DNA of 64,000 nt, from the NCBI RefSeq assembly GCF_035083965.1, contig NC_089730.1, forward strand, positions 17,529,242 to 17,593,241, written 5' to 3'. Both the position numbers and the translations under genes were made by a program. Each line of letters begins with the position of its first letter. Within the stretch, counting starts at the first letter, position 1. Origin of the DNA: Branchiostoma lanceolatum (taxonomy: Eukaryota > Chordata > Leptocardii > Amphioxiformes > Branchiostomatidae). The notes under the pieces were generated by a model, which saw only the letters and a list, made by a program, of their open reading frames with translations, did no database searches and was not told the origin of the DNA. Positions 13,710-27,666 of the stretch are shown in pieces.

Positions 13710-16700
13710 ATGCGCAGCCATCAGTTTGTCCCGGCAGACGGCATCTTTACCAACGAGATGCAGGTTAGAGACAGGGAAGCCCTTTCCAAAAGGGGAAAAT
13801 GCTGGAGTATATTCAGCATCTTGGCCCTCGCTGCAGTCCCAATTGTGGGCATGCTCGTTCAGAGTAGTCTGATTGTCCACGACACGAAAAGAGAGAAGGA
13901 TTCGGCTGAGCTCGTGTCTGGAGAAATCTCCCTGGGCACCAACATGGGTCTGATCGCCGTGAGCCTGGCGGTGGAGAGAGGGACAACGGTTCTGTATGTC
14001 GGGTCCGGCAGCAACCCGCGAGTCTACGATCGACTGAAGGAGGTAAGACAAAGCGTCCCTGATCTTTTAATTTAAATACAAAAGTAACTGTAAATGCATC
14101 TAATTTAAATTCGCGTGGTTTTTATTTCGCGCTAAGGCGAAAATGGAGTGTTTGTGGTGGTTTTAAATTTGCGGCAACGCTATAGTCATATACTGCTACA
14201 GTATTAGACAAAAATGTTTGTGGTGGTTTTAAGTTCGCGGTGAAACGGTCGCCCCGAAAACGGCCACGAACATAAACCACCATGAACATTTCTACATTTA
14301 CAGTAAGTACGTACTGTGGTGGAGCGCAGGGAGAAGGAAGGTTAGTACGCAGATGGTTTCTGTTTACCGAACAAACTGGAGAATTTATACCAATGGAATA
14401 AAGACGCTGCTCTTCTGGTTATTTGTCAATCTTTTTTTCTTCTCCCTGGAACCAAAAGTAGGACGAAATACCGATATTTCACGAAACCAGAACTGGTTCA
14501 TTTACACATTGTTGTGTTCACCTCACCTTTCCCCCTGACACTTTTGTTATAACGCTAGTTCACCATTAACCGGACGATTTCCTGTAAGAGCCAATCTTGC
14601 AAAACAATAAAAAACATTAGTTCTTTCTGTTACATAGATGTTATTGAGTATCTTTGTCACGGATACTACACATATTTTATTTATTATCTAGTCCTGATAC
14701 AAAAATACTGCAATTATAAAGGGCCGCCCGTGGCGTTGAGACCGGTGGCATATTTGCGCAAGCGTAACCCGGTACAACCGTATTCCACGAGGAAATAATC
14801 TTGCCGCTAATTACCTTTATAAAGCAGCTGCTGTTCCTTTCCTGGATTGAAGACAGTGCTTACGTTATAAGCTTGTCTTAGCACGAAAAAAATACGACAA
14901 AACGGCCGGCAGGTTCCACACGCCTACGTCGCAAAAAAAACACGCTCTGTTCTTTCGCGGTGGTTTTATGTTCGCGGTTTTCGCGGCGACTGTTTCACTG
15001 CGAACTTAAAACCACCGCGAAAATTTCTGTCCAATACTGTAGCAGTATGTGACGATAGCGCTGACACAAGCTCAAAACCACCGCAAACACTCTATTGATG
15101 CCTTCGCCCGAAATAAAAACCACGCGAACTTTACAGTAACCTTTAATGAGTGGAGGTGTTGTCCTTGGGCCACAGGTTCAAAGCAGTGCATATGAGAATA
15201 CAGGCACGTAGACCGAAGAACTTTGATGCCGACAAAGCTATGCCAGATCTATGTTGTATGTCATTTGTGCAGCTGGGATTTCACGTTCACCACGATTGCA
15301 AGTAAACAATAACCCCAGGTCTTATGATATCGAGTCGTACCTCCAAGGAGCATGTAGAGAAGCTTACTCCAAAGCTTTGTAAGACAAAGTGCCGATTCAG
15401 TATTTCCCTGTAACCCGTCTGTGATTTGATAGATCAATTTGATTTTGATTTATATCTAGTAAGGACATCCTTCTTATTAACTTAGTCTGCTGGATTGACC
15501 GAAGAGAAGGTATACACCTGATCAAGATGAATCCCATCTATAATGCTTCTAGTATTTCCAGAGGGCAACGATCTACTAAGTGTCTGGCTTACAGCGAATG
15601 GCTCCAACCTTTATACAGATTTCCCTCGCAGATTTCCCCTGGCGTGTGTCTGCAGGAGACATTTCACGGCTAATGGCTTTTATTATTAGCTCGGCTTACA
15701 TTTCATACGTAGCGGCCCGCCGAAAGGAAACCTTGTTAAGCCGTCTTGTTTTTCAATGTGCACACTGCACAAAATGGCCTCGGATCCTGACGTATCCGGA
15801 CAGGAGAACTCGGAGATCCGGAACCTCAGATCAGACTGATGTGGTACACCACTTGCACGTGCAAGTTAATTCAGGTAAATTTGAGTTGTTTTAGTACAAT
15901 ACGGCCCCGTTTCCGTCTGGATTCTTACGGATCTGAGGTTCCAGATCTCCAAGTTCTCCTGTCCGGAAACGTCAGGATCCGAGGCCATTTCGTGCAGTGG
16001 TGGTTCCGACTAGACTTCCACGCTACAGCAATTTGTTTTGCTTCGTATTATGATTAATTAATCTTTTAAGAGCAATCTTGATTAATGATGTTCACGGGAG
16101 GAAGTTAGTTTGATCTTTTATTCTTTTCCTTTTCAAGTGAAAGACAGCATATTAGAACTTTTCACATGCTAACGTCACCATCATATGAATAAGATAAACC
16201 GATGCAATAAACCGGCAGATCTAACCATTTATCTGCCTTGTCGTCCTCAGACGTACAGGACGACGGACGAAGCTATTGCAAGCCTCACCAAATGGTCCGA
16301 CGTCCCGGGTGATTCTCCCTGGCAGTTCCGGAGCGGGAAGAACCTGCATGAGTACGTCAGGGAGCACCGCCAGGAGCTCATCAGCAACAAGACATCTGTC
16401 GAGGAGCAAATCCAGTAAGTTATCTCATATTCTCTCGTATTTATTCACATTATTCTATTCTCTATAAGCCTTTTTATTGTTGTTCAGCTATTACAATAAC
16501 ATTTTTTTTTTTAACATTCATTTTTTATTGGTTTATAAACAAACAAAGAAAAAAAGATACACAAGACATACATGGCACGGAAATAAGGTAGTTAACAGAC
16601 ATGAATGGAAAACTAAAACCGATAAATAAAACTAATTGACAGTAATAGTGAACAATAACATGTTTATCCAAGAACTAGATTCTCGAGATTTCTTGCGCAT

Positions 16701-27666: not shown

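Follow-up and report, generated by a model that had tools for sequence, protein, structure and literature searches.

The gene at 13710-27666 on the + strand of the window (the whole 64-kb stretch of DNA that was analysed) was found to encode a NIT-domain receptor guanylate cyclase in which both halves of the composite active site are damaged. By its predicted architecture the protein belongs with the animal receptor guanylate cyclases that carry a NIT domain (NIT-GCs). There is about an even chance that it represents a pseudocyclase NIT receptor, predicted to make no cGMP as a homodimer and to be kept because it dimerises with an active NIT-GC paralogue, which it would inhibit or modulate allosterically.

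The gene model contained nine exons with a reading frame of 1,827 bases, giving 608 amino acids and a stop with no internal stop. All eight introns were found to contain GT donors and AG acceptors with agreeing phases. Translation is predicted to begin at 13710, where the open frame has its first ATG, although a further exon may lie upstream. Exon 1 (13710-14042) was found to encode aa 1-111 with the N-terminus, the first transmembrane segment (TM1), the start of the NIT domain and the first ER motif (Glu89-Arg90; Arg90 at 13977-13979), followed by NIT domain sequence in exon 2 (16251-16414) and in exon 3 (17665-17831), the latter with the second ER motif (Glu211-Arg212; Arg212 at 17801-17803). 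Exon 4 (20376-20935) contained the end of the NIT domain, the second transmembrane segment (TM2) and a signalling-helix-like linker, followed by the cyclase domain in exon 5 (22747-22894), exon 6 (24221-24379), exon 7 (24804-24902) and exon 8 (26424-26521), and by the C-terminus in exon 9 (27568-27666), which runs to the stop and keeps the TYWL motif. Exon 8 is needed in the model because exon 9 falls in another frame without it.

Several other features were found in the window. The - strand contained two long single-frame open reading frames at 494-2938 and 32438-34333, which encode related leucine-rich-repeat (LRR) and Ig-domain proteins (LRR_8, LRRNT, Ig_3), and the + strand at about 44000-46200 contained pieces of open reading frame resembling a peptidase S51 (cyanophycinase-like) gene, with a Pfam score of 22.0 against a cut-off of 23.9 bits. 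A tandem array of about three units of 180 bases was found at 9182-9757; its two further copies match the reference unit at 91% and 73% identity. Direct and inverted repeats were present upstream of the NIT-cyclase gene and in its introns (11905-12542, 15763-15999 and 16876-17204, the last with a 147-base inverted pair) and may be mobile-element debris. Also upstream of the gene, at 12663-12786, two 58-base arms that are 98% complementary form an inverted repeat around an 8-base spacer, and the microsatellite at 17446-17621 consisted of a 141-base (TC)n tract followed by a 36-base (TA)n tract, ending 43 bases before exon 3.

The open frame, the clean splicing and the GC3 of the NIT-cyclase gene are indirect signs that the gene may have been maintained. 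All 608 codons were free of stops, and 190 of the 5,472 possible single substitutions (3.5%) would make one. The GC3 was 0.70 against an intron GC of 0.40, a sign of limited weight because GC3 is as low as 0.43 and 0.41 in the window's two LRR genes. The presence of several separate catalytic replacements suggests that catalysis was not lost recently, and the frame is still open.

The 608-aa protein was found by Pfam to contain a NIT domain (PF08376) at aa 85-315 (E 2e-26; 94.3 bits against a cut-off of 24.9) followed by a C-terminal Guanylate_cyc domain (PF00211) at aa 402-575 (E 2.3e-47), and no other Pfam domain scored above its cut-off, a weak HNOBA match at aa 352-395 falling under it. 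Two hydropathy peaks flank the NIT domain, one at aa 29-57 (TM1, about aa 31-57) and one at aa 329-353 (TM2). The same order of TM, NIT, TM, linker and cyclase is found in animal NIT-GCs, namely Platynereis NIT-GC1/2 and the placozoan NIT-GCs (PMC7400543, PMC1592074); in this comparison of published architecture, the window protein may be set apart by its replaced active-site residues. The closest solved relatives of the cyclase region were the natriuretic peptide receptor GC-A (44% identity) and GC-C (42%). The linker in exon 4 contained DLT at aa 367-369 where GC-A has the ERT that marks a signalling helix, and the remaining helix aligns. A change of the ERT Arg in the signalling helix of GC-E is reported to prevent the enzyme from being switched off, and human receptor cyclases without the signalling helix lose activity and are monomers (PMC1592074).

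The NIT reference was drawn from eight NIT loci in 19 genomes, seven of which were aligned and one (L089) omitted for lack of a usable local alignment. Ten columns were found to be invariant in the seven bacterial NIT domains, and the window protein keeps eight of them (Glu89, Arg90, Arg151, Tyr198, Glu206, Ala208, Glu211 and Arg212), the other two being altered to Asn102 for Gly and Glu267 for Arg. Both ER motifs were retained, and Arg90 and Arg212 were invariant in 7/7 aligned domains. Two conserved interface arginines of the NIT domain are thought to bind the ligand, according to PMC7400543; in the window protein they may be Arg90 and Arg212, but Arg151 is likewise invariant and kept. The solved NIT protein NasR (4akk) was found to give a weak alignment (E 0.047) that spans the second ER motif. 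To the first-pass annotation the fold and the sensor had looked intact and unbroken; the gene is indeed unbroken, and the sensor is recognisable and largely conserved. The input side of the receptor thus looks largely competent and the output side does not. Bacterial NIT-cyclase fusions were also considered as a reference and set aside: by eye, the seven NIT proteins from the 19 genomes comprised five chemoreceptor-like proteins, one histidine-kinase-like protein and one (L093) ending before any output domain.

Class III cyclase domains form dimers with two composite active sites, and the C1 and C2 domains of adenylyl cyclase pair as a heterodimer. For each active site of Chlamydomonas CYG12, the structural report names Arg571 and two metal-binding residues, Asp482 and Asp527, as the contribution of one chain and Asn599, Arg603 and Lys640 as that of the opposite chain, with base recognition by Glu523 and Cys592 (PMC2576301). 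These residues were mapped by alignment to 3et6 (aa 401-571 with residues 2-171), chain residue 1 being taken as 467 from the modelled range given in the same source. Lys640 lies three residues beyond the aligned range and was placed on a no-gap assumption; a separate alignment agrees with this placement, which falls on the first K of KGKG.

The first metal Asp was found to be replaced by Ser415 (codon TCC, 22765-22767, exon 5) and the second by Gly459 (codon GGC, 24223-24225, exon 6), followed by the replacement of the Cys by Tyr526 (24848-24850), of a conserved Asp by His530 (24860-24862) and of the transition-state Arg by Lys537 (24881-24883) in exon 7. All five residues lie exactly where the first-pass annotation had placed them. 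Gly459 was not created by a splice junction, because its codon lies whole within exon 6 and the codon split by the intron is that of Gly458. The KGKG loop in exon 8 was found to read A574-I-K-D, so that the triphosphate Lys is lost as well (Ala574, 26513-26515); the loss of catalytic residues reported earlier is thereby borne out and extended to five of the eight residues named for CYG12 (D415S, D459G, C526Y, R537K and K574A). The guanine-binding Glu455 (exon 5), the triphosphate Arg505 (exon 6) and Asn533 (exon 7) were kept. The metal half thus contains Ser415 and Gly459 in place of its Asps and keeps Arg505, and the half that serves base binding and the transition state keeps 2/5 of its residues (Glu, Cys, Asn, Arg, Lys), namely Glu455 and Asn533, with Tyr526, Lys537 and Ala574 in place of the rest. 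The three pairs of an active homodimeric guanylate cyclase, the metal Asps, the transition-state Asn and Arg, and the guanine-binding Glu and Cys, were each found to be broken, and a complete C2-like half is likewise absent.

The aligned comparison set contained the 80 best-scoring bacterial loci out of 248 relatives, six viral-contig loci and three PDB cyclases, presumably mammalian (GC-A, GC-C and sGC alpha). Both metal positions were occupied by Asp in 86/86 prokaryotic and viral-contig loci, the retrieval patterns having restricted the first of them to Asp or Ser and left the second free; the six viral-contig relatives, although distant, contained both Asps in every case. Among the same 86 loci, the transition-state Asn and Arg were each conserved in 85, position 530 was occupied by Asp in 69 and by Asn in 15, and position 455 was Lys throughout, which is the adenylate type, so that the set gauges catalysis and not guanine binding.

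A combined yardstick was built from the 35 columns in which GC-A and GC-C agree and conservation among 48 bacterial representatives reaches at least 90%. The window protein keeps 26/30 of them outside the active site against 2/5 inside it (Fisher p 0.044). Four residues are thus lost outside, and two of these (456 and 457) sit in the loop adjoining Gly459; sGC alpha, scored for comparison, loses 2/5 active-site and 2/30 other columns. With the columns shared by GC-A and GC-C only, 5/8 active-site losses stood against 38/103 elsewhere (p 0.26). The bacterial-only yardstick gave p values of 0.045, 0.036 and 0.034 at conservation levels of 0.8, 0.9 and 0.95, which are inflated because Glu455 and Tyr526 are scored as losses against the adenylate-type Lys and Asp. 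Statistically, the case that losses are concentrated in the active site is modest, and the identity of the lost residues is the stronger point.

The premise of the first-pass annotation, that class III cyclases need both Asps, was found to be too simple: the C2 domain of AC9 contains Ser at the first metal position and Ala at the second, and the loss of the Asps is by itself no proof of inactivity, because heterodimeric cyclases carry both Asps on one chain. The conclusion drawn from that premise is reached all the same through the second half-site, which is broken too and which had been listed in part; since both half-sites are damaged, a true pseudocyclase is the best reading. The main rival, rather unlikely on the evidence below, is that the window protein serves as the C2-like half in a guanylate cyclase that works only as a heterodimer. 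A partner would then give both Asps and the triphosphate Arg, the window chain would give Glu455, Asn533 and Lys537 (for Arg), and one working site would result, as in the C1/C2 pair of adenylyl cyclase. The Ser at the first metal position and the small residue at the second follow the AC9 C2 pattern, and Glu455 and Asn533, out of three catalytic residues that are kept, are those of the C2-like half. ODR-1 and DAF-11 of C. elegans carry a sensor domain other than the NIT sensor of the window protein. They offer a precedent for an obligate heterodimeric receptor cyclase whose chains, like the window protein, are not each self-sufficient, each supplying catalytic residues to one site (PMC5225109); those chains complement each other, whereas the window protein has both halves damaged in one chain. 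The C2-like half is itself damaged, with Tyr in place of the Cys, Lys of the Arg, Ala of the Lys and His of Asp530, although it may retain weak activity, and AC9 C2 keeps both its Asn and its Arg where the window protein has Lys for Arg. The Lys for Arg and the non-Asp residue at 530 (Asn in sGC alpha) are moreover shared with sGC alpha, a chain in which the Cys and the two metal Asps are present but the counterpart of Asn533, kept in the window protein, is missing.

A decaying gene, released from catalytic constraint and drifting toward a functionless pseudogene, would fit the many catalytic substitutions and the differences from the columns common to GC-A and GC-C outside the active site, yet five catalytic replacements suggest an old loss, and no stop, frameshift or lost splice site has followed; together with the GC3 value, the retention of most strongly conserved structural columns and the presence of both ER motifs, this makes decay unlikely. 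Signalling by a homodimer through other proteins, as a receptor or scaffold independent of cyclase activity, would agree with the retention of the sensor, the membrane segments and the cyclase fold alongside the loss of the catalytic residues, but the sequence contained no pointer to another effector and no further Pfam domain over its cut-off, and this explanation is considered very unlikely. An assembly error or gene-model artefact, with the Asps of the real gene in missed exons, is the least credible explanation and would be most surprising: the sequence does come from a single assembly, but the changes are distributed across exons 5, 6, 7 and 8 and the splice sites are clean. No alternative cyclase exon was found when 83 reference cyclase domains (GC-A, GC-C, sGC alpha and the 80 bacterial) were searched across the 64 kb; they matched only exons 4-7 above background, and short exons could go unseen in this search because exon 8 itself was unmatched. 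Strict Asp-motif patterns gave no match in the 64 kb, although an exon beginning at the exon 6 boundary could evade them, and a broad Asp-type scan in six frames gave 15 matches. Inspected by eye, these lacked cyclase-like flanks, and the introns flanking exon 5 (20936-22746 and 22895-24220) contained no + strand match. An Asp-bearing alternative exon, if any, could only fall beyond the window or be too unlike the known motifs to be recognised.

Under the preferred reading of a pseudocyclase NIT receptor, the window protein would dimerise with an active NIT-GC paralogue through the linker and the cyclase surface. At the first site of such a mixed dimer the metals would be due from the window chain, which has none of the metal-binding Asps to offer, and at the second site the base and transition-state residues would come from the window chain, with 2/5 kept and Lys for Arg. 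Since neither site would be normal, inhibition or gating would be expected: the dead chain would add its sensor and remove or weaken both active sites of the pair, and as an inhibitory or allosteric subunit it would tune NO- or nitrate-driven cGMP. It is tentatively proposed, as a possibility on balance doubtful, that the protein is a NIT receptor dedicated to braking nitrogen-oxide signalling: catalytically dead, it would pair with active NIT-GCs and lower or gate the cGMP they make, in a mixed dimer that has two sensors but lacks a competent site. Several observations count against the preferred reading: the two altered positions among the invariant NIT columns, the DLT in place of ERT in the linker and the HNOBA match under its cut-off. 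No second cyclase, NIT or NIT-GC gene was found in the 64-kb window at the sensitivity of tblastn, and so no partner is in sight there.

NIT-GCs and inactive cyclase domains are each already known. No description of an inactive NIT-GC was found in the titles and abstract openings of the open-access literature among the matches listed, which is weak evidence of novelty, and the terms "pseudocyclase" and "pseudo-cyclase" were likewise absent among the matches listed. In Platynereis photoreceptors, NO feedback is mediated by NIT-GC1 (PMC10584369), and the NIT-GCs form an animal nitrogen-oxide pathway apart from soluble guanylate cyclase. If the window protein is a maintained dead member of this family, the NIT-GC pathway would have regulatory subunits, and the protein would be a natural separation-of-function variant in which it could be asked what the NIT sensor binds, free of enzymatic output.
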